Of a stretch of DNA of 64,000 nt, positions 3,436-43,606 are shown piece after piece. Both the position numbers and the translations under genes were made by a program. Position 1 is the first letter of the stretch, and each line of letters starts with the position of its first letter. The stretch covers positions 3,533,069-3,597,068 of the forward strand of contig JAJEKV010000011.1 in NCBI GenBank assembly GCA_021234155.1, written 5' to 3'. Source of the DNA: Isoetes taiwanensis. Lineage: Eukaryota > Streptophyta > Lycopodiopsida > Isoetales > Isoetaceae. The notes beneath the pieces are model-generated. The model had not been told where the DNA came from. It saw nothing but the letters and a program-made list of their open reading frames with translations, and did no database searches.

Positions 3436-3458
3436 GTTAGTAACATAATCAGTCTCAT

Positions 3459-4640: not shown

Positions 4641-4669
4641 CACTATTTCTGAGATCACACCAGCATCTT

Positions 4670-5569: not shown

Positions 5570-5583
5570 CTTATTGTAGAGTG

Positions 5584-6434
5584 TTACTCTCTTTTACCAT
5601 TTGAAATAGTACACTCTCCTCTTGACCACACAGGTCTTGCATCTACTGTTGATAACCATTTCCTTCCTAAGAGCAGATCATAAATATCTGACTTCTCATC
5701 TATTCCTTCAAAGGCAACAACCACAAAGTTAACAGCAACAATTATCCCCTCCACATCAATTGGTACATTGCTAACTATTCCCATGGGGTTAATTTTGGTG
5801 TTTGAGAATGATTTTAAGACCATGGGAGCCTTCTTGTCTATTTCAAGGCCACAGAATCTCATAATATGATGAGGCATGGCATCACATTAAGTGCTGATCC
5901 TCCATCTAATAGGACTTTGGTCAGAACCTTTTTACCCATTCTAGCAACACATGTAAAGGCTCCTGGATCATAGTCTTCTTGAGTCAAAACATGCTCCTCA
6001 ATATGATTTGTCAGAGCAAATTCATCTTCCTTGGTCACATTTAGAACCTTTTTTCTGTAGGATGGAGCTATTTTCAGCAGGGTTAGCAAATCAACACTAA
6101 TTTTTGAGTTCTTAAGTAGATATTCAAAATCCTCATTCTCTTTATCCTTTTTTAAGCATTTCTGACAAGGGGGAGGAGGTATAACCATATTTTGCTCAAT
6201 TTCTTTGTGTCTCACAGCATTGACTTCCTTATTGACTTGTATTTGCTCTTTGTCTTTTGTCTTGTTCATTCCTCTTGTGTGAACAGCTATGATATCCTCT
6301 TGCTCTTCAATTTCCTGCACAGATATGACAGAAGCACTTTGTTCATTGGCTTTAGACTTCTCTTGTCTAGCAAAATATTCTTTCACACTGCACCTATCTT
6401 CATAATGACCTACTAAAAAGCACAAACAGGGCAT
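5584..6434 (-). pseudogene. Retroviral-type aspartic protease region
   Basis: Two overlapping frames (5859-6434 and 5584-5877) cover this region. The first ends in KVLLDGGSALNVMP, a variant of the DTG/DSG catalytic loop with flanking hydrophobic strands as in gypsy proteases. The second continues with 'LLGRKWL', the usual ILGRxWL-like motif near the protease C-terminus. The N-terminal part is charged and poorly conserved and links to gag. A frame change at about 5860-5877 breaks continuity. Confidence 0.8.
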
Positions 6435-14879: not shown

Positions 14880-17132
14880 CTACGTATTGATGCGGGGGTG
14901 CCAATTATGATCCATGCAAAGCGGCGAGAAACATGGCGGGCATCTATGAGCAAGCACTGTTTGGTCTACTCCTGGCGGCAGTCGATCTGATTGAATCTTC
15001 TTTGTGCCTTTGAGTGTTTCAATTTCATATTCTTCCATGTTTGCCACAGCGGCGGGTTCAATTTCCCAAAAATATCTTTTGATCTCATCTGTTTCATCGT
15101 TGGTAGGCTGGCTGAAATATGTACCGCGAAATTTTACAATATCTTTAGCATGCCTCGGTTGCACACCATTGGGTTTGAGTTGTTCCTTACTTAGCGACCT
15201 TTTGATACTTGACATTGCACCATCATGTTCACCTTTACCATGAGCGGTGGCAAAGTAGTTCCACACTATTTCCTTGTCATTGATTGTGAAGTACACGCCT
15301 AAGAAAAAAAAAGGTTTTCTGACGACTTGAATTGTGATGAGACCATCACTCCAAACCCAATGCTTCTCATACTCTATTTCATGTTCCTTAAGCCATGCAA
15401 CATGCTTTTGTAGGCGGTGTTCCACAAATAATGAGTCATGCACTTTATCATCGAAATGTAAAAGTGAGTCTCTTTTATGATCTTCCTACCATTGTTGAGT
15501 CTATTCACGATCTGCTCCAACCTTACGTTTCTTTTTTCTCTTCTTTGGATAGTCTTCTTACATGTACGCGAGGAGCAGGGAATATCGGCACTTTTGTCAT
15601 GTCTATATGTTATGTGAACAAGTATAGAAACTTGAGTGCGTATGCGGTCATTGGCCGGGGCTCATTACGGATCTTGATCTTTGTAATTTTCTGCAAAGTC
15701 AATACTTGAGATACAATTGTATCTTACGGAAATGATGACACACCTTTGTTTAAAGCTGATTGGCCTGCCAATGTGCTATGTAATTGTGTGGAACAAAATC
15801 GATATTACCTTCTTCACTTCCTCTTGAAACTCTTTGGGACTTCTCTCATACGTACTAATCTCAAGGCGGGTTTGTACCTCAAAGCCTTTCTTGGATCCCT
15901 GAATTCTCGTCTGGTCCCGAGGTTGCTTTTCAAATGTCTTCCAAGTAACTAATCTTGAACCCGTGCCATCCATTTCTGTGGACATTTTCTAATTCTATCA
16001 ACCCACATTTTTTACGCCAACATCAGCGGTTATGATCAAACCACTCCTCATCATCACCTTTCTTTTGAGACCACTTGTCTCCATAAATCACTTTGGTGCA
16101 CTTGATTGTATGCTCCTTGGCTGCACATTACGGGGCGGGGCCACAAATCTCCACGATGGCGGTTGCAATTGTCATGAACTCCACCCGATTTTTTCTCATT
16201 TTGTTCAATCCACCGCATGATGTATTCAAATTTCAAGTGGTAAATGCAACAACATGTATGCCTCTCACGCATCCTCCTTACAAAACTTCGGTTTCAACCT
16301 CTCAAAAGTCTGCAATGCAATTTTGATATGAGGGATTCTCCTCTCTAAACACGAGGTAGAATTGCAAGCTGCTTGGGAAATCGTGTGAATGCCAAATAAA
16401 TGCTACATATAATGAACCCTACAATATAGGATGAATACTTACTTGGCTGACTTCAAGAAGGTGAATTGGATGTTCCATCTTTATTCACATCTCACGATAC
16501 ATACTTCCTCCGTCTTTCTTGTATGGAGAAACTCTTGTATTTTTGTCGAACTTGATAACATGCTTCTCTATTGTGATCTAACATGCTATCCATCCGCTTC
16601 CTCCTCACGAACATTGACCAAGGTCCTTCCCCTTTGTTAGCTTGCACCCTTCTTTGAAAAGCATTTGAAATTGTTTTTAGGGGATCTTTGAGCAAATCAG
16701 CCACTTACAGCTTGATTCAATGGCTTGACACCATTTGTACCTTCTTTGCCATTATCGGGGTGGACTTCCTTGCCGCGAAGCATGTCATGATTCCTCTCAA
16801 ACTTATGTTCTTGCATTGTTTCCTTCAAATTCTTCACCATTTGCTTTCGGCCATAGTAACCTGCTTAGATTTCTTTATAGAAGCAATTGGTAAATCCCTT
16901 GCCCTCAAAGAAGGCTGCATCAGGATCGGCCTTTGTCATTGTCATCAACATTTGTACTAATTTGGTTGAATACTTCATAAATTTCTCCTGAAATTTCTCT
17001 TATTTACTTGGTCACTTTCGGTCTCAATTTCTTATTAGTCTTTGAAGGCGAATCTTTAGAAAGGGAATTCTTCTTCATTGCTACCTTCTTTGCATACAAT
17101 CTCGCCTCTCGATCTCTCTTCCTTCTTTGCAT
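14880..17132 (-). pseudogene. Transposase-like gene of element 1
   Basis: The ATG at 17132 begins MQRRKRDREARLYAKK, a basic N-terminus. Further open pieces lie at 16492-16704, 16054-16272 and 15776-15985. The best conserved block (14880-15443) has HWVWSDG, then about 27 residues later EIVWNYFATAHGKGEHDG and KRS. This pairing of a (W)SDG motif with an HGKGxxDG motif resembles large uncharacterised transposase-like proteins of eukaryotes. I infer that the Asp residues belong to an RNase H-like DDE core, but I cannot name the superfamily. Many frameshifts interrupt it. Confidence 0.55.
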
Positions 17133-25080: not shown

Positions 25081-25224
25081 TGAATTATAGGAAAATACTT
25101 GGAGTTGGAGTTGGAGGTTTCAATACCCAGGCCTTTTGATTCCATGCCATGAGTCCTCAGGCCTCTTGATTCCATGTATGTACGCAAGCCCTCATTAGGG
25201 CGGATTTGGGGTCTGAAAATGGCC

Positions 25225-25878
25225 CTTATCTTGGGCTAAAGATTTCCACGTCAGATTCGCCAGGACCAATCAGGTTTGCGCCTTTTTTACGAAAGTCAGT
25301 ATTACTTGGCAGGTAGAAGGATGAGCAGGCTTACTTGGCATCCACATGGCGTATTTTCATAGGGGATGCCTGCGCTTTTATTGCAACCATTCTAATGGCC
25401 CGTATTTTTTGGGAGTAAACCCGCGCCCAAAATAATGGTGACTTTGACCCTCTTGTCGGCGTCACCAACTCCCTTGTCAAATTTTGGCGCCAAACTTACA
25501 TCTTTGTCACTCCCGAAGCCTCTCGTGCATCCTCTCTCGCCTTCCTCCTCATCGCAATCCATGTCTCCTGTAATTTACGTGTTCTTGCCCCATTTGAGAA
25601 CTCCCAAGGTCAAGAAGTGGGAGGTTTTGTCTCAATAGGTTACCGTGGGTGAGTATCTTTGCCATCAGCGAGGGGTGAGCATAGAGTTAAGCGACAAAGG
25701 CGATCGGGCGATGCGGACACATAGGTAGGATAAAAGAGTTCAAGTTGAATTCTAGCGGCGGAAAGTGGAAAGTATAACAATACGACATGCATATACCCCT
25801 TCGATATGGCCAAAGAGCTAATTTCCACCAAAAAGCGGCTTCCCAAAATTGCATAAAATGGTAACCACCTTAAAAGCG
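25225..25878. other. Element-2 left subterminal region
   Basis: No recognised protein. A plus-strand ATG frame at 25435-25638 encodes a Ser/Pro/Leu-rich 67-residue peptide of doubtful reality. Confidence 0.35.
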
Positions 25879-25951
25879 GATCACACGCCAAGCGAAGCTG
25901 GTACATGTCGCTACTTAAGCTGCGTAGAGATAGTTTCGGCGTCGTGTGATC
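25879..25951. repeat. Inverted motif pair 1
   Basis: GATCACACGCCAAGCG at 25879 and GGCGTCGTGTGATC at 25938. This is the leftmost of nine related pairs. Partial echoes of the right arm follow at 26023-26036. Confidence 0.8.
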
Positions 25952-26259
25952 TTCTTATCTTTTCATTTCTTTTCGTTGTGCGTGTTTACAAACAAATTTA
26001 TTGTGCGGGTTTATGTTTATCGGGGCGTCGTGGATGTCATTCCGGCCGAAAGTATTAGTAGTGTACTTGTCGTGTATCACATAGACATCGGAATTGTCCT
26101 TTTCAAGGTATGGATGCCGTGACCTTGGGGGTATAGGCATACGGTTTTACGGACATGATTATAGCGTAAAGGTCGAGGGAAACCGAGCTTGAGGCGGTTG
26201 AATTGCCCCTTTAAGTGAACTTTGTAAACCCACGGACTAATGAGAACAATGTAATTGCA

Positions 26260-26866
26260 ATGAAGAAATGCATGGCTGACGAGGTGCAAAGCGGGAATGT
26301 CGAAAGCGGAGGCGTGAGGATGAGTTTCAAAATCTTCACACCGTTTGAGGTATTTGCTAACATATTTCAAATGGCGAGGGGAAGTTCGAAAAGCTCGAAG
26401 ACATATCGTGCTTTTCTCCCCCTGGCCGATTTTGTGGATGGCTTATTTTTGGTTCCGACACGGGATGTTCGATTCCACGAATCATCCGGTCAACTAACCG
26501 AGGTCAGCGTAGTTAAGTCCTCCTTTAAGTTCGGATACTTTCTTCCAAAACAATATTTATCGTTAATTGTCAACTAGAGCGAAGGAAGCGAAAAAGAGAG
26601 GTCTGCACAACTTTTTGGGAGCCGTTTGAGGACCCTAATGAGACACTTTCCGTGCGGTGGATATTCGAGTATGGAGAGGGAGGAAGTCATTTTTATCGGC
26701 CACCATGGAAGCGAATGGCCATTATCGAGCTAAGAGTGCTAATGGAGCGAGAGGAGATTTGCGGCGACTTCCATTATTTTATTGATGGCATTAGGGTTGG
26801 TTCTGGGCAAGAGGGAAATGTAAAGTTTAGTGAGTTCGCGATCAACAAGAAATTGTCTATCGGCTA
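26260..26866 (+). pseudogene. Element-2 cargo gene 1, unknown protein
   Basis: The ATG at 26260 opens a frame (MKKCMADEVQSGNVESGG...) to a stop at 26575. In the next frame the sequence continues as a plausible single protein (WEPFEDPNETL, FEYGEGGSHFYRPPWKRMAI, GDFHYFIDGIRVG) to a stop at 26864. A total of about 200 residues is split by one frameshift near 26580. It has no recognised domain; the mixture of aromatic and charged residues suggests a folded globular protein. Confidence 0.45.
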
Positions 26867-27046
26867 AGCGCTTTGAATCTCGGTTTTTATTTGTGTTTTT
26901 GTCGATGTTTTTTAGGGTTCCGTATTTTGTCCGATATTTTTTAGGGTTCCGTACAATTATTTAAAAGCGTTACCATCATATTTTACTTTAACCGTTTTTT
27001 TACTATTTATCTCTTGCCGGTTGTCTATTTTTGTCGGTGTTCGTAG

Positions 27047-27054
27047 TATAAAAG
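27047..27054 (+). promoter_or_regulatory. TATA box of the H3-like gene
   Basis: TATAAAAG lies 28 bp before the ATG of the histone-like gene. A normal initiation site would fall at or just past this ATG, so the true start may be further in, or the leader may be extremely short. Confidence 0.5.
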
Positions 27055-27074
27055 CGCCATCCATTTGAGAAGCC

Positions 27075-27929
27075 ATGGCAAGAACTAAGCAAAGCGCAAG
27101 GATCCATCCAGGTGGTGTAAGGCCGGTGATTACATTAGTCGCCTTCTTCATCGACTCTCACGAAGTCTCGATAGAGATTCTCCTCCTCCCACCATGCCTA
27201 TGGAAGACCGGAAAAGAAATCCACATGACGGATGGCGGGAGAAGCAGCTCCGGAGTAAGTAGGGAGGTGCACTCCGGTTCGGAGACGAAGAGGATGAAAA
27301 TGTGAGAGACCGTGAGCGTAATATGGCCGGATTAATTATTGGGCAGCCGCCTCTTCTTGCTCTTCCTCCTCCCTGTTCTTACGTGGAGGTGCGGGACCTT
27401 CAAATCAAAGGAGGAGGCCCAACGCCCGAAGGGGAAGGCTGACCGGGGAATGTGAGGAGGCGGCGGAAGAGTCGGCCGAGGAACAAACTTGAGATGCGGG
27501 GGAGGAGGCGGCCGGAAGAGTCGGCCGAGCAACAGGCTCAAATGCTTGGGGTGGGTGAGGTAGTGGCGGAAGCAGAAGACGGTCTGGCATTAAAAGCCGA
27601 GATTAAGAAGTATCAGAAGAACAGCGAGATGGTCATTCCGCGTCTCCCATTTGCCAGGCTCGTGAGAGAGATTCTGCAAGAGTGTGGTGCGATACATCAT
27701 ACCAGTTACAGAATTCAAGCAACTGCCTTAAATGCTCTTCAAATGGCTTCGGAAGCAGTTGGTGTCGGTCTGTTCGAGGACTCGCAGCTTGCGGCAATAC
27801 ATGCCAAGCGGGTGGTGTCATGCCAAGGACATGCGCCTCGTCTTACGCATAAGGGATCCCGAGTACTATGGTCAAAATTTTATGGCTGAATACAACAAGA
27901 AGAAAGACCCCCCAGAAAAAAGGCCGTGA
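27075..27929 (+). pseudogene. Divergent histone H3, CENH3-like, carried by element 2
   Basis: The ATG at 27075 opens MARTKQSAR, nearly the H3 tail start. GTAAGG after the Pro-Gly-Gly codons could be an intron donor. After a low-complexity acidic/basic tail over several frames, 27602-27817 encodes the histone fold: [43 protein letters not shown] and AAIHAKRVV. All H3 landmarks are there. The segment between the RE of LVREI and the LQ of helix 2 is about four residues longer than in canonical H3, as in centromeric H3. Near 27818 the frame shifts, and [16 protein letters not shown] (H3: KDIQLARRIRG) follows. It is probably a captured host variant, now damaged. Confidence 0.85.
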
Positions 27930-28066
27930 AGTGCCTTTGTGTTTTTTTCATATGTATAATATTTCTTAATGTAATGGCTTTATAAGCTTAATCTCTTAGT
28001 CCATTTCTTTCTTAGAAGCCTATCTTCGCACTTTTTTATTTTTTTTTTTTTTAATGTTATCGTGAG

Positions 28067-28130
28067 GATCACACGACGCGACAAGCATTGTGCTTTTTGT
28101 TGCACATAGTAGTCTTGGCGTCGTGTGATC
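28067..28130. repeat. Inverted motif pair 2
   Basis: GATCACACGACGCG (28067-28080) and GGCGTCGTGTGATC (28117-28130), close to a perfect 13-bp stem with a 36-nt loop. It lies between the H3-like gene and cargo gene 3. Confidence 0.9.
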
Positions 28131-28133
28131 CAA

Positions 28134-28157
28134 CCCTAACCCTAACCCTAACCCTAA
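28134..28157. repeat. (CCCTAA)4 interstitial telomere-like repeat
   Basis: Four exact hexamers directly abut inverted pair 2. This is the TTAGGG type, not the TTTAGGG type usual in plants. At 24 bp it may be chance or a repair scar. Confidence 0.8.
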
Positions 28158-28285
28158 AATGTGCGGACAAATCTCCCCAACAGCGGCTGTGTCCCCTTTC
28201 ATAATCGACAACGGCTACTTGAGTTCAAAAGTGACAGCGCCTTACCGCTCCTAAACATCTTCTTGTTTTCGTCGTTTGCTTCGCC

Positions 28286-29504
28286 ATGGATTGTTATGTG
28301 AAGTTCCTGGAATGGTATGCATCCGCCCCTCATGACAACGAGGAAGTTCGCCGATTCGCGATTTATCCGTTCTATTGCAAGGAGTTGGACATCATGGCAA
28401 ACGATGGCGAGCTTGGATGCTATCGAGGTTGCCTTAGCTTTCACCCGGACGCTTGGTCTCGGCCAAGACGTCCTTTGCGGATGTCCACGGCTCGTGGATT
28501 CCAAAACCAGCTCTAGAGGAGGCGGCTTCCCATTTGCAAGCAGGGGAAGATGTTTTTCAAGAATGTTGCGCCAGCGGGCTCCTCTGGCTGCGTCCTTGTG
28601 CTTAAGAAGGTATCTTATTTCTCTTTGCCGTTTGCATTTGCTAGTTATTGCATTACGCTTTCGGCCAAACCGAAGATACTTGGAAACAATGAAATCTTTA
28701 AGCCAAGGGGTCAGTTATGTGATGATGATCTTGACTATAGCGTAGAAATGGAGATAGATCTACAAGAAGAAGAGCAAGAATGTAGGAGTTTTAGCTTCGG
28801 CCTTGGCCTTGGGGTGAACCAGAGGAGGGAGATGATTAAGGAAGAGGATGAGGATGGGGATGAGGATGAAAAGAAGTTATGCGACATAACGCCAATTTTA
28901 GTGGAAGGCAAAGAATACTTATTGCTAAGTGATATCTTGAGGAACCCGTCTTTGTTACGAATGTGTGCTAGGGAAGGCGAGCTTATCGATTACCTTGGCG
29001 AATGGGTAAACTTAGGCCCTAGATTTTGAAGAGGATTTGGACAAAGAGATGTTTGAAGTGTCTAATTATACGGCAATGCTATAAAGCTTAAAGAAGCCTA
29101 TGAGAGGCTGGAGTCTCGATTTGCTCAAGATGAGGTGAATCTACCAGCGGAAGAAGAATTCCAGCGTCTCAGGTGCAAAGTACATAGCGGGATCTGAGGT
29201 TTGGCGAGGCCCTTGATCAATCATGGCTGACATAAGCACAGTAGATGAGGATAAATGTGAAGAAGATAATCTTGAGGGTTCTTATTTGTGGGAAGTAGAT
29301 GATTTTTCTTGCCGACATGCACGCGGGGGCGGGGAAAGATTGAAGGACTCTACATTATTACGATATATCTCAAGATTCGTTAATGGGGAGATAATCGTCT
29401 TATTGAGAACTTTCGATCCAAAAGGTGCGAGTTTGTCTATTACATCCGTGCATTATGCATGTTGGGAACCATTCCCAATTGGCATCAAACCTTTGAAAGG
29501 GTGA
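28286..29504 (+). pseudogene. Element-2 cargo gene 3, acidic unknown protein
   Basis: The ATG at 28286 starts MDCYVKFLEWYASAPHDNEE. Later frames include a strongly acidic segment (MIKEEDEDGDEDEKK, near 28835) followed by VEGKEYLLLSDILRNPSLLR, to a stop at 29027. A further frame at 29223-29504 (MADISTVDEDKCEEDNLEG...) may be its last exon or a separate small gene. A GTATCTTATTT donor-like site lies at about 28610. No domain is recognised. The acidic stretch recalls histone chaperones, but that is speculation. Confidence 0.4.
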
Positions 29505-29805
29505 TAGCAATTCGGTAGGGATGTTGTGTTACAATATTTTGACGACCAAAGCCGGTCTCTTGGTGAGCAATATGTTAAATTTTTTAGTCTGGCGGCTTGA
29601 CTCACCCAAGGTTGGAAGTGGGGTCGATAACATGGAAGTCATTGCCTTGTTGGATCGGTCTTGTGGGGGATTGAAAGAGCATGAAATTGGCGACGAAGCT
29701 TGAGAAATTGGAAGTTATATGTTTTCCAACTTGTATCGGTAAAATTATTTATGTCTGCATTGTCCTTAGGAAATTCCTAATAAAAAATTATTTTATTTGT
29801 ATTTA
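29505..29805. other. Element-2 spacer after cargo gene 3
   Basis: AT-rich. A short plus-strand frame (29521-29703) has no recognised domain. It ends in a polyadenylation-like AATAAAAAATTATTTT near 29778. Confidence 0.35.
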
Positions 29806-29870
29806 TTCACATCGCCTTGAAATACATCGGTCGATTTTTCTGTCATATCTAGGTTTTCGCGTCGTGTGAT
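29806..29870. repeat. Inverted motif pair 3
   Basis: TTCACATCGCC at 29806 and TCGCGTCGTGTGAT at 29857, about 100 bp upstream of the TATA box of cargo gene 4. Confidence 0.7.
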
Positions 29871-29966
29871 ATCTATCTCGAAGAAATGAAATATTATTGG
29901 AAAAAGACAATTAATTTATTTATTCCTCACCACGGCGAGCGAGAAGCAACTAAATGCGACTCATGT

Positions 29967-29975
29967 TATAAATAG
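29967..29975 (+). promoter_or_regulatory. TATA box of cargo gene 4
   Basis: TATAAATAG, followed by AAGACC and a C/T-rich leader to the ATG at 30062. The identical TATAAATAGAAGACC precedes cargo gene 5. Confidence 0.75.
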
Positions 29976-30061
29976 AAGACCGATGTCCCGCTGACCTCCG
30001 ATCGCCTTCAGCCTTACGCTCATCTTCTACTTCCGGCTTCCGCCTTCCACCTTACGCACCG

Positions 30062-30433
30062 ATGGCATCATCATCTTCCTCTAGCAAGCGACCACGCCAA
30101 GATAGCACTCCCCAGCCCCAGGCTGCCGTGGACATCACCCTTGCGGTGGTGATGAAGAGATTCAAGGAGATCCATGATGAAAACAACCGTCACCGTCGCC
30201 GAGAACAATGAGGCGTCGGCGGATTAACCTTCCGCGAGGGAGGCTGCCGACGGCGAGGCGTTGAGCTCGTGGAAACATTCGCCATGTACCAAGAGGCGGC
30301 GAGCAGCGGGGCGGCGGCGGTTGAAACTGCTCACATGATTCCGCGAGGCCTTAGAAGATATGGAGAAGAAGCTCCGGCTGCGGAGGATGAGAACGACCTT
30401 ACGGCTTCGGTGCGGGACATGAAAATCAGCTAG
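30062..30433 (+). pseudogene. Element-2 cargo gene 4, small coiled-coil protein family
   Basis: MASSSSSSKRPRQDS, then DITLAVVMKRFKEIHDENN and a basic HRRRE run, then a stop after 51 codons. In shifted frames the rest matches cargo gene 5, including EDMEKKLR near 30358 and the final 'gatcatgaagatcc'. The architecture is a Ser-rich head, a basic segment and a C-terminal heptad coiled coil, reminiscent of a bZIP or a small structural protein. The function is unknown. It is damaged by at least one frameshift. Confidence 0.55.
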
Positions 30434-30552
30434 AGGATCATGAAGATCCCTAGCCGTTGTATCTATCTATTTTTGCTTCAAAGAAAAGTTTTCTCTATTT
30501 TTTGCTTCTATCTATCCCGTTGTTCCAATGTACGTTACTGTTTTATTAAAAT

Positions 30553-30621
30553 ATCACCACGGCCTTGAAATGCCTTGCTTGCAATTAGGTAGCAATCAAT
30601 GGATTTCGGCGTCGTGTGATC
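30553..30621. repeat. Inverted motif pair 4
   Basis: ATCACCACGGCC (30553-30564) and GGCGTCGTGTGATC (30608-30621). The spacer is nearly identical to that of pair 6. Confidence 0.8.
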
Positions 30622-30725
30622 TCCATGCCATTCTATTTTGCTTCAATGAGAAGTTCTATCTTTAGTTATGTATCGGTAAAATTACTTATGTATAGATTGT
30701 ATCACCGAAATTATCAATAAAAATT

Positions 30726-30846
30726 ATCACACGAGCTTTCTCTTGAAGAAAAGGCGTTAGAAAATAATGGTCCTTTTTCCTCACCTGCTAGCGAAGTAGC
30801 GATTCGATTTTTTCTGATCCCACGGCATCGCCGGCGTCGTGTGACT
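30726..30846. repeat. Inverted motif pair 5 (wide spacing)
   Basis: ATCACACGAGC at 30726 and GGCGTCGTGTGACT at 30833, just upstream of the TATA box of cargo gene 5. Its spacing (107 bp start to start) is about twice that of the others. Confidence 0.6.
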
Positions 30847-30867
30847 CAAGCTACTCTGAAATCCTGT

Positions 30868-30876
30868 TATAAATAG
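30868..30876 (+). promoter_or_regulatory. TATA box of cargo gene 5
   Basis: TATAAATAG, then a leader of about 220 nt made of CCTTCCGCCTT/CTCATCTTCTC repeats up to the ATG at 31101. Confidence 0.75.
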
Positions 30877-31100
30877 AAGACCTTCTATCTTGCCGACCTC
30901 GATCCTCTTCCGCCTTCCGTATACGCTCATCTTCTCGCCTTAGCCTTCGCCTTAGCCTTCTCCTCGATCCTCTTAGCCTTCCTTACGCTCATCTTCTCCC
31001 CTTCGCCTTCGCCTTCGCCTTCTCCTCCGATCCTCTTCCGCCCGCCTTACGCTCATCTTCTCCCCTTCCGCCTTCCTTCCGCCTTCCGCCTTCTCCTCCG

Positions 31101-31453
31101 ATGGCATCTTCATCCTCCTCCGATAGCGGACGGCGCCCGGAGCTGCCAGCGGACATCACCCTTCTTTGTGGTGATGAAGAGATTCAAGGAGGGGTTCCAC
31201 GACAAAAACCGTCGTCGTCGCCGAAGATGGAGGCGGTGGACAGGATAGAATTCCGCGAGGGGCTTTTTTGCATGGCGAGACCTTGAGCTTCAGCGGCAAC
31301 ATTAACCAGTGCCGAGAGGCCAATAGCCCGTAGGGTCGGCGATTTTAAGCGCACACAATATTTTGGCTAGAAGATATGGAGAAGAAGCTTCGAGCTGCGG
31401 AGGATGAGAACGCAGCTTTACGGCTTCAGCTACAGGATCATGAAGATCCGTAG
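31101..31453 (+). pseudogene. Element-2 cargo gene 5, paralogue of gene 4
   Basis: MASSSSSDSGRRPELP, then DITLL; the frame shifts, and the DNA then matches gene 4 through GTGATGAAGAGATTCAAGGA. The C-terminus, in a third frame, is EDMEKKLRAAEDENAALRLQ then LQDHEDP and a stop at 31453. This is a leucine-zipper-like heptad. Duplication of gene plus flanking motif pairs (29.86-30.62 and 30.83-31.61 kb) produced the two units. Confidence 0.55.
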
Positions 31454-31537
31454 CCATTGTATATATATTTTTTGTTTCAAAGAAAAATTTGCTCTGTTTC
31501 TTGCTTCTATCTGTTCTCTTGTTTTGTTTTATTAAAA

Positions 31538-31607
31538 GATCACCACGGCCTTGAAATGCCATTCTTGCAATTAGGTAGCAATCAATGGATTTGGCGTCGT
31601 CATGATC
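31538..31607. repeat. Inverted motif pair 6
   Basis: GATCACCACGGCC (31538-31550) and GGCGTCGTCATGATC (31593-31607), located after cargo gene 5. The spacer CTTGAAATGCC...CAATTAGGTAGCAATCAATGG is shared with pair 4. Confidence 0.75.
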
Positions 31608-31974
31608 TCCACAGCGATACACCTCGTTGTATGTATAAATTCATAATTTATTAATGGAAAGTATATGTAACACAAATATCTAGCTAGATTATGTGATAAC
31701 TTGCAGGTAAATGCGAATTTGCATGTGGATGACAACGTCTATTCACATACGTGGCTTGTGGATGACAACGTCATGCCAAGGACGTGGCATGCGCTGCCAC
31801 AATAACACTGTCTTTTGTACGGCCTGCATACAGTACGGCTAGGATATGACGGATCCCATGATGCGAACATAGGCTACCGTTGCCTAATTGCATGCTATAA
31901 TTTAAGCCTCGTGGGATTATTACACAACTTTATCCATTTTCGCGAACCGTAGATTCCAGCGTATCTCTAGTTTC
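31608..31974. other. Element-2 spacer before cargo gene 6
   Basis: Non-coding. It contains a short duplication of GTGGATGACAACGTC (31724 and 31750). Confidence 0.4.
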
Positions 31975-31985
31975 TATATAAAAAG
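31975..31985 (+). promoter_or_regulatory. TATA box of cargo gene 6
   Basis: TATATAAAAAG followed by a C/T-rich leader of about 90 nt to the ATG at 32074. Confidence 0.6.
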
Positions 31986-32073
31986 CGTGGAGGCCTTTGT
32001 CTTCTCCTATCCGCCATCTCTGTTTCTACCACATCCGCCCTCGGCCATCTCTCATGTTCTCCCATCACTTTCA

Positions 32074-32492
32074 ATGGCCTCGGCTCAGTTCCATCCCTGC
32101 CGAGATCTTGTCTCAAGTTTTGGTCAAGGAAATTGAGAACATTGCGTCTTTGCAGAGGAGGAAGCGGATCCGCCTTCTAAAAGAAAAAGAATGATGAAGG
32201 CGTCGCCAAGCTGGTTGCTGGCGGAGGAAAAGGCAGCCTTCTGCTGGGAGGTGATTTTAGTGCTTGACAATCGGTGGGCTGCCTTAGACCCCGAATTGCG
32301 CGCCCGCGAGATATAACCTCAAGAGAGGCTTTAGGGCAATCGTCAGGCGGGAGAGGCTGCGAGCCCAACTTCGATGAGCGGGAAGATAAGGTTGCGGAAT
32401 ATGAGAACGTGGTTGCGGGGCAGGCAATCATGTTGGAGGAGCAGAAAAAAATTATCACTGCCCTCCAGGAAGAGCTTGCCCGGCGATCATAG
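32074..32492 (+). pseudogene. Element-2 cargo gene 6, same small-protein layout
   Basis: The ATG at 32074 reads MASAQFHPCRDL. A frameshift leads to ILSQVLVKEIENIASLQRRK and a basic run (32110-32190). The last frame, from about 32368, is NFDEREDKVAEYENVVAGQA and IMLEEQKKIITALQEELARR, a clear coiled coil ending at 32492. Head, basic segment and terminal coiled coil are in the same order as in genes 4 and 5, although the sequence is diverged. Confidence 0.5.
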
Positions 32493-32644
32493 GCATCGGG
32501 CTCCTCCTAGAGGGGCCCGTTTTTTTTTTTTATGTTTGTAATTGGTTTTATTTCTCAATGGGAAAAGTTTTTGACAAATGTGCCGAATATTACGTTTCCT
32601 ATTTTTAATTTTCAATATCCGTGGTAGAGAGAATGACAAGGCAG

Positions 32645-32708
32645 GATCACCTGAGCGAAACCCTTCATAGGGTTTTAAAGCTCGTGTGCAGATTTCGCGT
32701 GGTGTGAT
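32645..32708. repeat. Inverted motif pair 7
   Basis: GATCACCTGAGCG and CGCGTGGTGTGAT, 51 bp start to start, between cargo genes 6 and 7. Confidence 0.7.
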
Positions 32709-32845
32709 ATACAGTGTAGTTAGAATAGTTATTAATGTGTTCCAGCGGACAGTACCATTAATGTGTTCTAGCGGACAACCGACAGAATCCGCTCGACACG
32801 TGCGACAGCAGCCGAGTGTGTTTAATATGTTGAAGCGCTAATATG

Positions 32846-32854
32846 TATAAATTG
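32846..32854 (+). promoter_or_regulatory. TATA box of cargo gene 7
   Basis: TATAAATTG, 93 bp before the ATG at 32939. Confidence 0.5.
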
Positions 32855-32938
32855 AGGTCCTTGCATTGTGCTCCTTCCGCCGGTTAGAGTCTTTGCTCCT
32901 CACTTCTATAATCTTAACGTCCCTCCCATTTGTCATCT

Positions 32939-33413
32939 ATGGCCTCCACATCCTCAACCGTTTGATAATGAAAACGCAAGAGGATAGAACTCCCTTCGAC
33001 ATAGTGTTGGGTGTTCTAATGAAGAGGTTGAAGGAGCAAGATGATCTTCTAAAGGAAAGGCGCCGTTACAATTCGAGAAAGAAGAAGAGAATGAATTCAA
33101 CCTTCTCATGCTTCGTAGCGGAGAGGCAAATCAGACGGTTGAATAGAAGGTTGGACGGGATGACATGCCCCAACAACCGTGACCGAGGTGGTTATGGCGG
33201 CAACGCGAGGATGCTAATTCAGGCGAGAAGAACACGTTGTGCTATTGGGACGGGGAGGCGGGACATGTACAAAGAGATGGTGGATGATTGGAGGAACGTT
33301 TGGATAGGGTGATTGCTCGCTTGAGGGGAAGAGATGAAGACGAAGACGAGGGGACGGAGCTGATGATGATGATGAAGATAATGAAGAAGAGCTGCGCTTT
33401 GGAGCAACAATGA
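32939..33413 (+). pseudogene. Element-2 cargo gene 7, small basic protein
   Basis: MASTSSTV is followed by a stop. From the ATG at 32968 the frame reads MKTQEDRTPFDIVLGVLMKR then LKEQDDLLKERRRYNSRKKK, aligned with DITLAVVMKRFKE of gene 4. It continues RQIRRLNRRLDG and a Gly-rich segment to 33312. A shifted frame adds an acidic tail (GRDEDEDEG or DDDDEDNEEEL) to 33413. It is the most distal family member before the convergent transposase-like gene. Confidence 0.5.
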
Positions 33414-33564
33414 GTCGTTGTATTTTGTTTTTCAATGTAACATCTTTCACAACTTTAATCAAAAGTAACCCTTTTTATTATTATCTTGTAAAGCTTCACA
33501 CGAAGCCACATAAATGCAAGCAATAGCGAACTCCCTTTATTTGTGGCAGGTATGATCTAAATAA

Positions 33565-33631
33565 GATCACACGACGCGAAGCTACGGTTGTGCAAACAAG
33601 GTTGGAGGCAAGTACTTGGCGTCGTGTGAAC
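33565..33631. repeat. Inverted motif pair 8
   Basis: GATCACACGACGCG (33565-33578) and GGCGTCGTGTGAAC (33618-33631), between the end of the cargo cluster and the convergent transposase-like gene. Confidence 0.85.
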
Positions 33632-33649
33632 ATGCTACACATTACAAGT

Positions 33650-35849
33650 ATACTTCGATTCTTTGTCTCTTAGATCTCCCTTTGTTGCGATGCTAGTGGG
33701 GCCCTAGAATTTTGCCAAGCAACTTTCCGTTTTCTCTTGACATTATGCCAATGGTGTTTTACGACTTGGGTTGCTCCTTAAAGCGACCTTCTTGTAAATA
33801 TTTAGCCATCGCCCTTCTATAAAACCACTATGTCATCATCTGTCTTAGAGGGTTGGTTCCCACATTTCCACCCCCCTCTTTGAGTGTTACGATGAAAGGC
33901 TATTTTAGCTTGTTTATGCGACTTCTCCATGCCTTGTGCACTCCACCTTTGCTAGGCTTCCATGCTTCCTAAAAACCAAGGTGCATGAGCCCAAAAGATG
34001 TGCAAGTAGTGCGTGACTTCACTCTCTCCCCATCGTCTATGAAAGCTTTAATAAATTTGTTATTCGCTTGCACAAACATTTACGCATCTTCTCTTGTGAG
34101 GTCCATTCTGCGAATGTATGGGAACAATTCGGACAATGCATCCCATGCTTTTTTTCCTCAATGCCAAGCGAGGGCGCCATCATGCGGTCCTGCTCCGCAT
34201 CAACCAGCAATTTTCCAAATTCATAGACCTTTTCTCCCATCCGGTTTCGTCGGAGCCTCTCTATGATTCTTTATGAAGCGTCGAAGCTTTCACCCCTCAA
34301 TTGACACCTTACGAGGCACACTTGTTCTTCTGCCCGTTTCTCATCGAGCTCTAATCTTACATTGCCACCATGCAAACCTGCTTACGATAGAACATGTTCA
34401 ACTCTCGAATTCCTTCCTCTCTTCTCTTCTTGTGCGAAATGTTCCACCACGAATCTGCAGCTCAAAAATATCATCTTGTCGATGATTCTCACAAAGCCGT
34501 GCAAAGTGCGGATATGAACCCTCTCTAATGGAATGGGGAAAATGCCATGGAACTTGGGATCTTCTTCTCCTCTATTAGGAGCATTTGCTTGGTTAAGGGA
34601 CAAGGTTGAAAAGCAGATCTTTCCAAGCTTGACTTCCTTGCATGATTGCAGTCTGAGACAACTTTTGCATGTTCCTTGTCCTCCTCCACTTTATGTTGTA
34701 CATTGCTTTCTCGGTTTTAAATCGGGCGCCAAGTGAAAAATTACTTTGTAAGATCCATAGTGATCTACTTGCAATTTTTCCCCTCCCTCGAATCTAGATA
34801 TTAGACTTCGGGATGTGGGTTTGATTGAACACCCATTTCAATACCTCGTGGGTTTCTTTTACGAACTTTAAAGAGACCTAACCACCAGGTGTCATCTTGA
34901 TTGACATGAGAACCATTTTCCATGCGCTTCTTCTCCTCGTCCGTCACCTCTACATCCTTTTTGTTATTCTTGTTGCTCTTTGATTTAGCATGTGCAATTG
35001 CATTCTCAATTGCTCTATTCATGATGACAACGGATACCCTCTCATACTTCTCAAATTTGGTCAGTTCCATTTCATCCAATTTTATGCAAACTTCAATCTC
35101 ACCATTAGTTTCTGCAACTGTTAAGTCATAATATTTGACAAGGAATTTTAAGAGAGTAATCAGGTCAACCCAAAGATTATTGCGTTCATTCATTCCAACT
35201 ATATCACAACAATCCTTGCCATTCTTATCTTTTATGGCTATGGCAGGACCAGCACATTCAACGTGGTGCATCTCTCCTAATATGGCATACACCATCTTTG
35301 TCCTAGTAACCCTTGTATTCTCGACAATTTGTAGGCGTGGAGGCGAATACTTTTTTGTGCCCATTCTTTTCAACGCTTCGTGGAATGGCTTGAATAGAGA
35401 ACGGTAACCAAGCCCTCTTGATGCCTACATCATCACAAAGCGGTCTGTACATCGTAAGCTTCTAACTTCTTGTAGATCTCCCCTAGTACCATTTCCAATA
35501 CCATCTTCTTGAGAGGAGAGTTGTAGGGCTGACAAATCATGTCCACTATCTCCCCGTTTCGTCGCTAGGTTCTTCACTCACGTAACCAAGATTGCTTCTA
35601 GTTTTCCCGGATCTTAAGCGGCCTTTGCTAGTGTTGTAAAGCGGACCTTGTGGCGTGACCACTGCGTCTGAATGCACCTGATCCAAACTTCGGTTCCTCT
35701 ATCGGTCGATAATACTTCTTCCTTTCTCGCAAGCCAAGGGGTGTTTTCTTCAAATTCTTTAACCTACATTGAAGCCCAAAGTTTGCTCTTTCGAGCTCTT
35801 GGATCTTTTCTTGCAGCTGCCCTATCACCAATTTGGACTTGTCCGCCAT
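33650..35849 (-). pseudogene. Transposase-like gene of element 2
   Basis: The ATG at 35849 starts MADKSKLVIGQLQEKIQELE, a short coiled coil. The main open block (34801-35373) holds IEVCIKLDEMELTKFEKYER followed by VSVVIMNRAI. Downstream frames give FPIPLERVHIRTLHGFVRII (34382-34603) and KKHGMHCPNCSHTF, a CX2C finger (34037-34240). A long multi-frame gene of this kind, convergent to the cargo and inside TIRs, is most simply the transposase. I do not recognise a named superfamily and cannot assign the catalytic triad. It is interrupted by many stops. Confidence 0.45.
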
Positions 35850-36317
35850 TATCTCAAAGAAGTTTCCCTCCCCAAGCCGTCATTCCTTTCCTTCATCGCG
35901 ATTGGAGTAATGGCGAGAGAAAAAAAGTGGCTGGTTTAAGTTATAATTCTCTTGTGACATCGGAAGCAGCTCATCTCAAGGAACTGTATTCGATTCGAAT
36001 GCCTTCATCCTCTCAATCTCTCACAATATCCCAAGAGGCCGGAGTTACCGTCACCACAAAATCGGACTAAACTTGAAAGCGTCTCGAAATAGCGGTTTCT
36101 TGCCACTCAACGGATCAATGGATATAAAAGCGCCATCCGCCTAGATGTCGACACTTTTTGAACCTGCAAGGCGCAACATGTCGAGGTCTAAGTTCTTATT
36201 TTTTAGACCTCCTTTTTTGCGATTGAAGACTGGAGCATATTCCTGAGTCAGTTGGATGCTTATCCACACATCATTTGGAGCTTCCATACTGCGTGGATCG
36301 CGACGGCCTTGAAATGA

Positions 36318-36890
36318 ATGTGTACAAATTGTATGCCCCAAACACAATTAAGCCGTTTGAGGCTCGGTCCAGGTACTAACCTCGTTTTTGAAATTTGCAA
36401 CGTGCATATGGAAATCGAAAAGTCCATTCTCCTACAATCCATGCTTTTATACAAAAGCAAATTCAAAATTCGAATTGTAGGGGGGCGGGAAGCCTGTATT
36501 GGGATGAAGTAAAAGATCGATTCTGAACTTTTAAGGTGCAATCGCAGCCATGAAAACGAAAGTCTAATACAAAGCTTCAACCTACACATTCAAATTTTGA
36601 AATGTAGAAGGGGAATGGACTCTAAATGAAAATAGGGCAAGACAAGAATCGGTGATGCGATGATTGGTATCGACAAACCAAGAGACACCGTCATGAGTTG
36701 CGGTATGCTATAATGCAAGTGGCTTTTTAGAAGCTGCGTGTTGCGTCAATCTGTCGACAACAAGAGAATTAAATACATATGGCGCCATAGATATGCGATT
36801 CCCCTTATTAGGGAGAATATTCCAAGCAAATCGTTGGGGAAAAAGGGGCGGAAATATGACGTGGAATGGCTGATAGGAGGCCATTTTAGT
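36318..36890. repeat. Internal duplicate of the element-2 right end, copy a
   Basis: Matches 38325-38880 (copy b) over about 560 bp, including AACGTGCATATGGAAATCGAAAAGTC, AGCTTCAACCTACACATTCAAATTTTGAAATGTAG and AAATATGACGTGGAATGGCTGATAGGAGGCCATTTT. Copy a stops a few bases before the conserved TIR core, so it is an end lacking its terminus. Confidence 0.85.
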
Positions 36891-36997
36891 TCATAAAACA
36901 TAATATAACTTGGAATGATAGATATTTTATATGCAAATGGGAGACTATTGACGAGGGACTTGTGTTTAATTTTAATTTGACAACAAATAAGAAAGTG

Positions 36998-37064
36998 GAT
37001 CACACGATGCGAATTTAGTGTGTTCCATTTTTGTTGCATATGTACTATCGGGCTTGGTGTGATC
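36998..37064. repeat. Inverted motif pair 9
   Basis: GATCACACGATGCG and GGCTTGGTGTGATC, 53 bp start to start. This is the only pair to the right of the transposase-like gene. Confidence 0.75.
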
Positions 37065-37433
37065 CTTGAAAAATAATATGCTCTTTGAAAAGGGATAATG
37101 ACTTATGTACTTAAGAGTGGTAACACATGTCAAGAAAAAAAAAAAAGTTAGGTATTCAAATGGAATTAGAAGCAAAAACTTTTTACATTCAAAATTTTTA
37201 TGGCCGTATGGCTTTACATCATTTTGTAAATTTAAATGCCGGGAGGCTTCAACTATTCACAACAAAAAGCGGGAGGCTTGCAGTCATATGGTAAGAAGCT
37301 GGAGGCAAGCTCGACTAAGAACAAGGAAAAAAAAATAAGAGGTGCTCTGCCCTAACAAATTTCATTCATCTGCTTCACCATCTGCAAAAAAAAAATAAGA
37401 AATAACCGTTAGTTGAATGCTTAAGAAAAGAAA

Positions 37434-37790
37434 GAAAACATGCATGTACCATGAACTAACGCCATGAGCTCCTCGAAGTCAGCAGATTCGTCTTCAACTT
37501 CTTCATCTTCTTCATCATCTTTGGCTTCTTCTCCATCGGTAGACCACTCATTTTCTGAAGAATCTCCTATCCAGCCTTCAAGAACACCTGTGATGAACTC
37601 CTGCTCCGAAATTTCCTCTGATTCCTCATTCTCTGATTCCTCGTCAAAGGAATCAGAGGAATCAGAGGAATCAGAGGCATTCAGAGCAAGAACCGTGGGC
37701 AGCGGAGGGAACTGCGGAGGGAACACCTCTTCCAGCCGTAATAGGCGCCTCTTGGAGGACACCCGGCTCTTCCGTGGCTGATCTCTTCAT
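37434..37790 (-). pseudogene. Acidic Ser/Glu/Asp-rich protein, first exon, element-2 copy
   Basis: From an ATG near 37790 the frame reads MKRSATEEPGVLQEAP. One base out of phase, the exon continues as SSKRRLLRLEEVFPP, then an acidic region with DSSDSSDSF, made by a 9-bp DNA repeat, and ADFEELMALVH. It stops at a splice donor CATG|GTACATGCATG. The order and both exon ends match the element-1 copy at 13536-13948. The shared position near the element end suggests an element-encoded accessory factor. Confidence 0.6.
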
Positions 37791-37984
37791 GGCGATGGAC
37801 TAGAGAAATTGGGCGGAGGATCTAGCGAAGATTGGGCGGAGATTGGGGAGAATGGGCGCCAATCTAATTTGGAATAGATATAGGCTGGATTAGGCGTGAA
37901 AATCGTAGGAATGATTCAGTATTCAGTCCTATCAACCATCATTACATGCCATTATGTGCATATCTCGAAATTTGAGCCATATCT

Positions 37985-38092
37985 AATATCTTCCTTTTTT
38001 AACCTTATACCTAAATATCCAATATCTTCCTTTTTTAACCTTATTCCTAAATATCCAATATCTTCCTTTTTTAACCTTATTCCTAAACCTAT
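37985..38092. repeat. 36-bp tandem repeat, three copies
   Basis: AATATCTTCCTTTTTTAACC then TTATNCCTAAATATCC, repeated three times with one or two changes. Confidence 0.9.
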
Positions 38093-38324
38093 ATGATTTG
38101 AGTTTAACCTGAAAATGAACACCGATATAATTCGAATTTAACATACTATTTAATACCAAGATGCTACGTCACACTATGTCGATAATTGGGATTTAAAAAA
38201 AACACTCCAAACCCTCCTCGAGAAAAACCACGTAAGTGCCGACCTCACTTGTGTTTAAGTTTTAATTTGACAACAAGCAACTTCCATATGTGTAGATCGC
38301 GACGGCGCGAAATCAAGGTGTGGT

Positions 38325-38880
38325 ATTTTTATGCCCCAACACAATTAAACCCGTGTGAGCGAACGTCCCATACTAACTTCGTTTTTGAAATTTGCAACGT
38401 GCATATGGAAATCGAAAAGTCCATTCTCCTACAATCCATGCTTTTATACATTAAGCAAATTCAAATTTCGAATTGTAGGGGGCGGGAAGCCTGTATTAGG
38501 ATGAAGTGAAGATCGGTTAAAGAGCGGCCCCGAAATGGCCCTCGAAATGAAAGTCCGATCGATACAAAGCTTCAACCTACACATTCAAATTTTGAAATGT
38601 AGAAGGCGGTGACGCGCACGCTTACCAAGAGACACCGTCATGAGTTGCCGGTATGCTATAATGCAAGTTGGGCATTTTAGAAGCGCCACGTGTTGCATCA
38701 GTCCGTCTGACAACCAACAGAATTAAATACATATGGCGCCATGAATGTGCAATCCCCCTTATTCCGGAAGAATATTCCAAGCAAATCTGTAATTATGAGA
38801 GTTTGGTATCCTAGGTGGCATGGGAAAAAGGGAGCGGAAATATGACGTGGAATGGCTGATAGGAGGCCATTTTCAGACCC
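38325..38880. repeat. Element-2 right end, copy b
   Basis: Partner of 36318-36890. This copy continues into the intact right TIR. Confidence 0.85.
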
Positions 38881-38895
38881 CAAATCCGCCCTAAT

Positions 38896-38918
38896 GCTCC
38901 CACTGAGCTACAACCCCA
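38896..38918 (-). other. tRNA 5'-half-like sequence abutting element 2
   Basis: On the minus strand: GGGGTTG-TA-GCTCAGTGGGAGC. It has an acceptor-strand length of 7, TA, and a D-arm with a GCTC/GAGC stem. It fits the first 22 nt of a tRNA with an A-box. The anticodon and T arms are absent; the element TIR begins there instead. Confidence 0.4.
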
Positions 38919-41050: not shown

Positions 41051-43606
41051 TTATATGCACTGGGGAAGAGGCATCCCACAAAGTCCCTTGTTGTTTGCAA
41101 ATGCTGACACAGGAAAGCTAGTGAGTAATCCACCTTGAGGAATCTTACCATATAGTAAATTGTTGGATACATTGAAACTCTTCAGCTCTGACAAATTCAG
41201 AAAACTTCCTGGTATGTTTCCTGAAAATCGATTTATTGACAAATCCAATGTTTCAAACTTGCTCAATCTATTACCAATAAAAGATGGCAGTTTTCCCTCG
41301 ATCTTATTTCTGGCTAGTGACATGTATGTGAATGACGCAAAGAAATCCGGCCCCAATGCAGGCATTTCTAGTCCGGCAATATTTATCCCAGTAAACAAGT
41401 TCTCAGAAAAATCCATCTGATACACAAACTGCGTATTAAGTATTCTTGGATCTACTGAAAAATTGAAATTGATAGATCCAGTCAACTGATTAGCATGTAC
41501 GTCAAAGGTATTGTATGACGGCAGAAATGGCATACTTAACGACAAGTAATTGTGGGATAGGTTGACATCTCGAAGCATAGGCAAAGAGTTTGTCAAGATC
41601 CACCAAGGAATGCTTCCCGTTATGTTGTTATTTGAGAGATCAAGGACAGAAAGCTGACTTTGTTGCAAAAGCCACAGAGGAATAGTGCCACTAAGATTGT
41701 TTGAAGACAAATAAAGGTTTATAAGCTTCTGAGTGGCTGCTGGAGTTCCTGCAGGATCAAGATCAGATAACAGATTATTTGAGACCTCAAGGATTGGTAA
41801 ATTACAAAGTGACAAAGGGAACTGTCCAGATAGTTGATTGTTTGAGATATTCAATATGTAGACATTGGATAACATGCCCAATGATGGTGGGATGCTGCCT
41901 GATAGAAGATTGTCTGAGAGATCCAGTTGTGTGAGATTGATCATGCCCCCAAACTCTGCAGGAATAGATCCTGATAATTTATTGGAAGCAATACCAAGAT
42001 TTGTCAGCTTATGGAGATTCGAAAATCCTGATGGTATAGTACCGGACAAGTTGTTGAAGTTCAAGTATAGGCGGCTAAGACTCCGTAGCCTTCCTAAGAC
42101 TTGAGGTATCTTACCATCGAGTTGGTTGCTTGTAAGATAGAGCTCTGTCAGGTTATATAGATCTCCAATTGAAGAAGGGATTGCACCAGAAAGCTTGTTC
42201 CTTGCAAAAGATAAAGAATATAACTGAGTTGCCTTACCAATAGAAACTGGAATGGTACCCCTGATTCCTGTACCTTCAATAGAACAAGTTTGTAGCTTAG
42301 TTAGCCTTCCAAAATCTGGTAAATATCCTGTTAGACTGGGCAAGTTCGTGATTGAGATACTTTCAAGGCTTACCAAATTACTCAAGCTCGAAGGAAGGAA
42401 ACCAGAAACTTTTGAGTCGCCCAATCTGAGTTCCTGAAGATTATGAAGTCTACCAAGAGACTCAGGAATTGGACCTGACAGATTTGCATTCAGATCCAAA
42501 TAAAGGACCTGAAGCTCTGACAGATTGCCTAATGAAGAGGGTATGTTACCTTGAAACTCATTTCGATCTAGCTCCAAACGGCGTAGCTTAGGGAGCTTGC
42601 CAAGACTTGCAGGGATCTGCCCATTCAAGCCATTGCCATAGAGACGAAGAACTTGCAGATTAGAAAGCTTCTCAAAACACTCTGGAATGATGCCCCTTAA
42701 GTGAGTGGTTCGTGTTGTTCTTCCAATATCCAAGTACTGCAAATGTGTGAGATTGCATAGCTCAAAAGGGATTTTGCCCCCCAAATTATTGTCATTCAAG
42801 TTCAGATACATGAGGCTGGATAACATTCCTAGCTCACCTGGTATTTTGCCACTTAGCTGTTGATTGGACAGATCTAAATGTTGTAGTTTGATTAATTGAG
42901 TACCTAAGCAACGAGGAATGATCCCAGATATATTACCCCCATATGATCCGATGGAGAGATATCTTAGATTTCTTAACGCACATAAACTTCTAGGGAACTC
43001 TCCACTGAGATCATAGTTATTACTTAAATCCATATACTCAAGCTTTAAGAGGTTACCTACTTCTGCTCCAATGGAGCCTGAAAGCACTGTGTTCCGAAGA
43101 GAGAGTATTCTCAACTCAGGAAGCTTAGAGATCTCTCCTGGGAACTGCTGGGAGAGCTGAACATTGGATAGGTTTAACAGCTGCAGTGATTGTATCTGTG
43201 GGATGTACTTGGCCACAGCATTGAAGTCCTTAGACTTATCCCGCTTCAATTGGGAACCATATGTATGTTGTAGATTCAACCCCACAACACTTCCCAATCT
43301 GTTGAAAAATACAATCAAGACTTAAACCAAACACAACTGGAAAAACGTCAAACAAAACGTATAACATGTTAAAAACCCTCATATAAACCCTAGTTTTACA
43401 ACAGCAAAGTACCTGTTGCAGGTTATCCCAGCCCATTGGCAACAATCGATATTTGCATTCCATGTTTGGAAGACATCAAAATTTGCTGTAAACCCTGATT
43501 TAAACCCTAAAAGTGCATTTCGATCCGTCCTTGTACAGGTTCCATTGGCAGTATAAGTTTGAGCAATGAAGAAACCCAGAACAAGTAACAGAAGCCATTT
43601 CTCCAT
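41051..43606 (-). CDS. LRR receptor-like protein, secreted, no kinase
   Basis: Two exons: 43606-43413 and 43298-41051, with a 114-bp GT-AG intron (donor AACAG|GTACTT, acceptor TTTTCAACAG|ATTGG). Joining them gives a phase-2 junction, CN-R-LGSVV, and 813 residues. A signal peptide (MEKWLLLLVLGFFIAQ) precedes the LRRNT cap (RNALLGFKSGF... CCQWAGITC). About two dozen LRRs of the form LxxLxxLxLxxNxLxGxIP follow, then the Cys-pair cap GLCGMPLPQCI. No transmembrane helix or kinase follows, so the product should be apoplastic. Related plant proteins act in immunity or development together with receptor kinases. The LRR frame is uninterrupted, in contrast to every other gene here. Confidence 0.92.

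Follow-up and report, generated by a model that had tools for sequence, protein, structure and literature searches.

A transposon with terminal inverted repeats encodes a divergent histone H3 variant in Isoetes taiwanensis, and an unrelated retrotransposon carries another

The stretch of Isoetes taiwanensis DNA analysed here (the window: 64,000 nucleotides, forward-strand positions 3,533,069 to 3,597,068 of contig JAJEKV010000011.1, assembly GCA_021234155.1) contains a decayed copy of a repeated transposon with terminal inverted repeats (TIRs), element B, and the comparison of its copies shows that this element encodes a histone H3 variant as a long-kept gene of its own. A second H3 carrier, element A, is a chromodomain Ty3/gypsy retrotransposon, unrelated to B and apparently commoner. 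The usual view has host histones acting upon transposons; in the present case, H3 variants are encoded by elements of two classes and kept by selection. If these proteins enter nucleosomes, the elements would influence their own chromatin state, and counter-silencing could be tested in a non-model plant. In addition, they would be a natural source of H3 proteins whose loops and tails are out of the ordinary.

The H3-fold gene of the window lies on the + strand, from an ATG at 27075 to a TGA at 27927-27929. Its core piece, at 27560-27814, matches the Pfam histone profile PF00125 with an E-value of 2.2e-20 and, since the core also recurs across the same genome, a chance likeness to histones is excluded. 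The histone fold that the initial annotation had claimed for 27075-27929 is real, with start and stop where they were marked, but the gene is broken in frame. In fact, the core is split over two frames, both on the + strand: the first part (27587-27817, from alphaN to HAKRV) is supported by the profile match and by tblastn, while the second (27825-27926) holds the end of the core and the C-terminal extension, with 34 of 34 residues identical to the B protein P0007. Compared with the intact copy L034, the window gene shows 13 gaps, 2 insertions and 90.6% nucleotide identity (772/852).

When a 71-residue core was searched against the I. taiwanensis assembly (1,658,258,908 bases, 1110 contigs), the best 150 of 4951 first-look candidates were scored; every one matched, and the list ended with a host H3 locus at an E-value of 3.7e-14. 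Fifteen of these 150 lie in open frames of at least 275 residues without an internal stop. Seven other B copies, L033-L038 together with the diverged L069, were read, each chosen for its long open frame. In five of them (L033, L034, L037, L038 and L069) the frame runs without a break from the MART start to beyond the core, whereas L035 and L036 are frameshifted. The search for intact copies elsewhere, which had been proposed from the outset, was rewarded in L033 and L034, both of which hold an intact, intronless gene of 291 codons. A lone processed pseudogene is ruled out, because the gene belongs to an element that is repeated and of which intact copies exist.

Element B as a whole spans 13,704 bp (25193-38896), as delimited by a left end common to four copies, by the end searches and by the flanks. 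The left TIR, CATTAGGGCGGATTTGGGGTCTGAAAATGGCC, lies at 25193-25224 (+) and is identical in 32 of 32 positions to the right end, its inverted copy at 38865-38896 (-). The left end at 25193 is shared by L034, L035, L036 and L037; the sequence fetched for L033 does not begin to match the window until 25769, nor that for L038 until 26845. In searches of the genome with the two ends, where the best 40 of 1384 (left) and of 1686 (right) first-look candidates were scored, paired ends were found 13.4-13.7 kb apart on C1044, C1045, C1103, C1019, C908 and C668, as well as at other spacings, namely 17-19 kb on C1055, C1072 and C1038 and 4.5 kb on C1059. These perfect 32-bp TIRs, together with dispersed copies that have the same ends and different flanks in ten other places, establish a class II element and bear out the earlier statement that the H3 gene sits inside a transposon.

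No target-site duplication (TSD) was seen in the 11 flank pairs read (ten copies and the window). Moreover, the joined flanks of the window match C919:3399323-3399402 over 80 of 80 bases at 96% identity with no change in length; weaker matches (80-84%), seemingly to the same repeat, often differ by one base in length. The joined flanks of the C1019 copy are matched at 100% over 120 of 120 bases in two places, and of the 40 places scored, 38 had a length of exactly 120 bases. For the C668 copy the joined flanks gave a mixed result, the best match (93%) being one base longer and three at 92-93% over positions 13-113 being of equal length. From these empty sites of unchanged length and from the lack of a TSD in the 11 flank pairs, insertion of B appears to add the element alone, with neither duplication nor loss of target bases. 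A TIR element of this kind is of interest by itself.

Besides the H3 gene, B holds several further open reading frames. Upstream lies a broken ORF0 (26101-26864, +), whose L035 copy has 274 codons from stop to stop and no Pfam match, and downstream a broken ORF2 (28286-29700, +). Four telomere-like CCCTAA units are placed between the H3 gene and ORF2 (28134-28157, +); three to four such units also occur just upstream of ORF2 in L033, L034, L035 and L038, and the TIR of the element likewise begins CATTAGGG. On the opposite strand, a broken antisense gene, a candidate transposase, includes a middle part (34727-35412, -) whose L040 copy gave no family match above chance and no match to a solved structure. 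The C-terminal part of the same gene (33707-34110, -) is weakly like RAG1 in its L040 copy (L040:4537-4938, +): the RAG1 Pfam family was matched with an E-value of 0.0081, below the cut-off, and all 15 matched PDB sequences were RAG1, again weakly (best E 0.0077). A coiled-coil-like antisense ORF next to the candidate transposase (35658-36365, -) gave weak matches only. RAG/Transib elements have CAC termini and make 5-bp TSDs; B ends in CATTAGGG and showed none in the flank pairs read, so it is classed here simply as a TIR element. The right subterminal region of B is doubled in direct orientation (36374-36887 and 38371-38873), in blocks that are 85-100% identical.

The B protein (P0007, P0008) has 291 residues. 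It starts with MARTKQTARIHPGGVRPGD, continues through a stretch rich in Ser, Pro, acidic residues, Arg and Lys, with about 165 residues separating the H3-like start MARTKQTAR from the H3 core, and ends in a C-terminal extension of about 20 residues. P0007 matches PF00125 with an E-value of 1e-30, and the best solved chains matching the B protein are H3. The core measures 89 residues in six B copies and 85 in eight host H3 loci and 12 gypsy copies, and an HMMER alignment with solved H3 places the four extra residues in loop 1, just as the initial annotation had estimated. Its remark that the tail diverges early was equally accurate, since MARTKQTAR-IHPGG departs from H3 after R8 in those five copies whose frame is unbroken. 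In this way the canonical tail, with its K9 and K27 contexts, is replaced apart from MARTKQTAR: the ARKSTGG of H3 gives way to ARIHPGG in B, and ARKS is missing before the core in all six B rows (that of L036 being a 53-residue fragment). As to variants, L038 carries A7T and L069 is without K4. P0007 keeps six and L069 five of the seven H3-H3' bundle residues, and eight and seven, respectively, of 12 DNA-contact residues are unchanged. With a mean pLDDT of 43.4, the AlphaFold model of this protein is too poor to lend nucleosome assembly any structural support. Among 7955 candidates scored, 5153 protein relatives of P0007 were found at an E-value of 1e-3 or better; identity was at most 56% among the 120 matches listed, and the four examined were tandem ordinary H3.

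The initial annotation had also called the protein CENH3-like, and this holds in part. In favour of it, loop 1 is longer than in H3, and R63 is changed to P, a CENH3-type change, in five of six B rows and in ten of ten CENH3. Nevertheless, loop 1 exceeds that of H3 by four residues in B and by one or two in CENH3 (n=10; core length 86 in nine angiosperm sequences and 87 in one), the start of helix 2 is H3-like, and the sampled plant CENH3 form a clade without B, so that a CENH3 identity is unsupported as stated. Two trees were built, among whose rows the rice CENH3 and the human CENP-A are long branches. With CENP-A, the 11 plant CENH3 form a clade without B at 96/93, B is a single group at 100/99 with a stem of 0.54, and B groups with all CENH3 rows at 71/60, which is not significant. 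Without CENP-A, B is again left out of a clade of the 11 plant CENH3 (96/94.7) and adjoins it at 79/77, a value that is likewise not significant. A grouping of B with host H3 was not rejected (p-AU 0.44), nor was one with the gypsy H3 (p-AU 0.21). Over H3 residues 44-131, 59 of 88 residues of P0007 equal host H3, against 54 for L069, 75 for the gypsy protein P0002 and 57 for grape CENH3; with this figure and the long stem, there is no tight cluster with the H3 of the host. By sequence, the B protein is thus a divergent H3 variant, left by the trees between H3 and CENH3, and not an ordinary H3.

These data bear on the idea that B makes a CENH3-type H3 which would load at centromeres or on the element itself and so bias its inheritance. 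The longer loop, R63P and the long divergent tail are what such a centromere mimic might show, and the best trees lean to the CENH3 side on the weak branch given above. However, a loop beyond that of all ten CENH3, an H3-like helix 2, a position outside the plant CENH3 clade and a gypsy H3 that is plainly H3-like make it quite improbable. The host CENH3, against which B could be judged most decisively, was not recovered in the genome searches, in each of which the best 150 of several thousand candidates were scored; the places recognised were host H3 and gypsy-type copies, and C974, the most promising candidate, turned out to be a gypsy-type copy.

Concerning element A, the best 150 of 8705 first-look candidates were scored in a genome search with PF00125, these counts not being copy numbers. 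The first 15 matches align from profile position 2, and the eight that were opened (including L008) show a host H3 frame; other matches start only at profile position 4-25, and at least 25 are in frames of at least 400 residues. Twelve regions were fetched, 11 copies of A (L009-L016 and L018-L020) and the window, and six were extended. Pairs of long terminal repeats (LTRs) of about 1.6 kb, 92-97% identical, were found in four of the six extended copies, and none within the stretches fetched for C907 and C1007. By eye, TSDs are exact in C908 (GCCAC) and C1018 (GTGACC) and of five bases with one mismatch in C1056, the left end of C1047 being unresolved in this reading. Both C908 and C1056 have Ty3-type capsid domains. 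The pol frames of C1056 and C1047, the two that were scanned, contain reverse transcriptase, RNase H, integrase and a chromodomain, the last matching PF00385 with E-values of 3.3e-9 and 2.4e-8. With its LTRs, gag-pol, chromodomain and short TSD, A qualifies as a chromovirus, and what sets it apart is a group of extra ORFs before gag: ORF1, which ends in an H3 core, then ORF2 and the shorter ORF3.

The ORF1 product of A is an H3 fusion of 411-464 residues in the 11 copies. Across ten aligned proteins the H3 core is near-invariant, and whole-protein identity falls to 42-44% between subfamilies. The N-terminal part (P0002 residues 30-345) had no protein match among 1311 candidates. Furthermore, the stretch before the core includes no recognisable H3 tail; ARKS is missing there in ten of 11 proteins, and the linker of L016 contains it once.

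The H3 genes of both elements were compared for selection in copies picked for their open frames, a choice that biases the ratios towards low values. The B core gave a dN/dS of 0.21-0.26 in four pairs with L069 (core dS 0.45-0.58; 0.19 for L034-L069 with a slightly different core cut), and the regions outside the core 0.39-0.46 in four pairs with L069. Closer copies were noisier, with 0-0.32 in the core and 0.35-0.93 in the rest. These values are a sign that the B core has been under purifying selection between subfamilies. For the gypsy core, dN/dS was 0.006-0.063 in the six of 21 pairs with unsaturated dS, the other 15 being saturated and giving no ratio, and a host H3 pair gave 0.012. A recent capture of host H3 by B was ruled out, since synonymous sites are saturated in four of four pairs (L034 and L069 against two host H3 genes).

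TIR elements often capture gene pieces, and the window copy is broken, as would befit a transduplicated H3 that is merely carried and has no role. Nevertheless, such a passenger is very unlikely to have kept a single complete frame under purifying selection across subfamilies, and to recur in a second element class with a very low dN/dS and a related neighbour gene.

That neighbour is ORF2, which in both elements lies downstream of the H3 gene and in the same orientation. Its C-terminal part in B is related to the ORF2 of the gypsy element: alignments built from L040 and pieces of L039 and the window on one side, and from six gypsy copies on the other, matched with a probability of 94.6 and an E-value of 6.6e-8 over 80 columns, both alignments being shallow. 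Three other pairings gave probabilities of 0.3% or less; one of them was that of ORF0 with the gypsy ORF1, whose homology, suspected by eye, was thus unsupported (hhalign probability 0.3). The related ORF2 behind the H3 gene in both suggests that A and B share a cassette. It is conceivable, if rather doubtful, that this cassette (H3 variant and ORF2) passed between retrotransposon and DNA transposon, and that these unrelated classes thereby write for themselves a chromatin that host silencing cannot mark.

Plant transposon silencing runs through H3K9me2 and DNA methylation. In the model preferred here, which is plausible and is put forward tentatively, the element-made H3 would enter nucleosomes that lack the K9/K27 silencing context, and so resist silencing. 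The element H3 would be translated, would pair with host H4 and would be incorporated into nucleosomes, with the greatest benefit where these form on newly made DNA of the element itself. Nucleosomes of this kind would withstand the loop of H3K9 methylation and DNA methylation by which plant transposons are silenced, and ORF2 would be a partner of the histone, either chaperone or tether. The predicted resistance follows from the replaced K9 context in B, the lack of an H3 tail in A and the general absence of ARKS. K4, kept in B except in L069, would be compatible with an active mark and is inessential to the model. Nevertheless, other lysines remain, and the linker of L016 keeps one ARKS. Moreover, with so long an N-terminal insert, deposition of the B protein might fail altogether.

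Two other roles were weighed against this anti-silencing model. In one, the H3 core would bring the element machinery to chromatin for integration, as a fusion tether in A or as a partner in B, and might be read by the chromodomain. It would accord with the fusion of an N-terminal domain to H3 in an element that also bears a chromodomain, and with the retention of ORF2 beside H3 in both elements, but it is unlikely, as no chromodomain was found by Pfam in the B pieces scanned and the near-freeze of the entire gypsy H3 core suggests nucleosome constraint and not a single tether contact. In the other, the protein would act as a decoy, titrating H4, chaperones or H3 modifiers and loosening silencing genome-wide while leaving the element's own DNA unaffected; the many copies, the largely kept core surfaces and the tails without K9/K27 context agree with it, but a cost to the host would be expected, and this role is considered distinctly unlikely.

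A published precedent is found in the fungus Pyrenophora tritici-repentis, where a hAT transposon carries an H3-like gene, H3L (PMC3538342). In the text available from that article, H3L has tail insertions and fits neither H3 nor CenH3, its function being left open. As in B, the carrier is a TIR DNA transposon that bears, beside its H3-like gene, another ORF without known function; by contrast, the text describes 26 very similar H3L genes, a hAT transposase, and forms of 5.6 kb and 2.3 kb, whereas B resides in a plant, measures 13.7 kb, forms divergent subfamilies under purifying selection, shows no TSD, contains an ORF piece with weak likeness to RAG1, has a longer loop 1 in its histone and is joined by a second H3 carrier from another class. 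What appears to be new with respect to H3L is the sign of lasting selection, the different element, the plant host and the retrotransposon carrier. As regards plant CENH3, B shares the longer loop 1, R63P and the divergent tail, and differs in a loop that is two to three residues longer still, in its place outside the sampled clade, in being encoded by a transposon and in its C-terminal extension.

In the case of A, a parallel comes from Gypsy elements of Phalaenopsis that have captured an AlkB m6A demethylase, reported with a screen of 121 angiosperm genomes (PMC9289625). To judge from the accessible part of that report, both are Gypsy lineages in which an additional host-derived regulatory domain became fixed, the cargo being an RNA demethylase there and a histone here; a histone domain is not mentioned in that part, where "histone" occurs twice in other contexts. 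Bracovirus H4, a viral histone that enters host nucleosomes (PMC9145170), is likewise described, in the portion consulted, as a host-derived histone in a mobile agent, although that agent is a virus and the histone H4, while transposons and H3 are concerned here and nucleosome entry is only inferred. In the open-access articles searched, preprints aside, no published plant transposon with a histone gene came to light; by term search, "histone" is absent from the available text of a review from 2026 on how plant transposons capture genes (PMC13317346), and also from that of the genome papers of I. taiwanensis (PMC8566536) and I. sinensis.

Outside element B, the window holds other features. Open frames at 2413-7296 (-) resemble a broken Ty3/gypsy element, with translated gypsy pol matches at 2512-4631, and an open frame of 201 residues at 14883-15485 (-), without a Pfam match, looks by eye like another transposon protein. 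To the right of B, a leucine-rich-repeat frame of 756 codons at 41054-43321 (-) has, by eye, the appearance of a host receptor-like gene.
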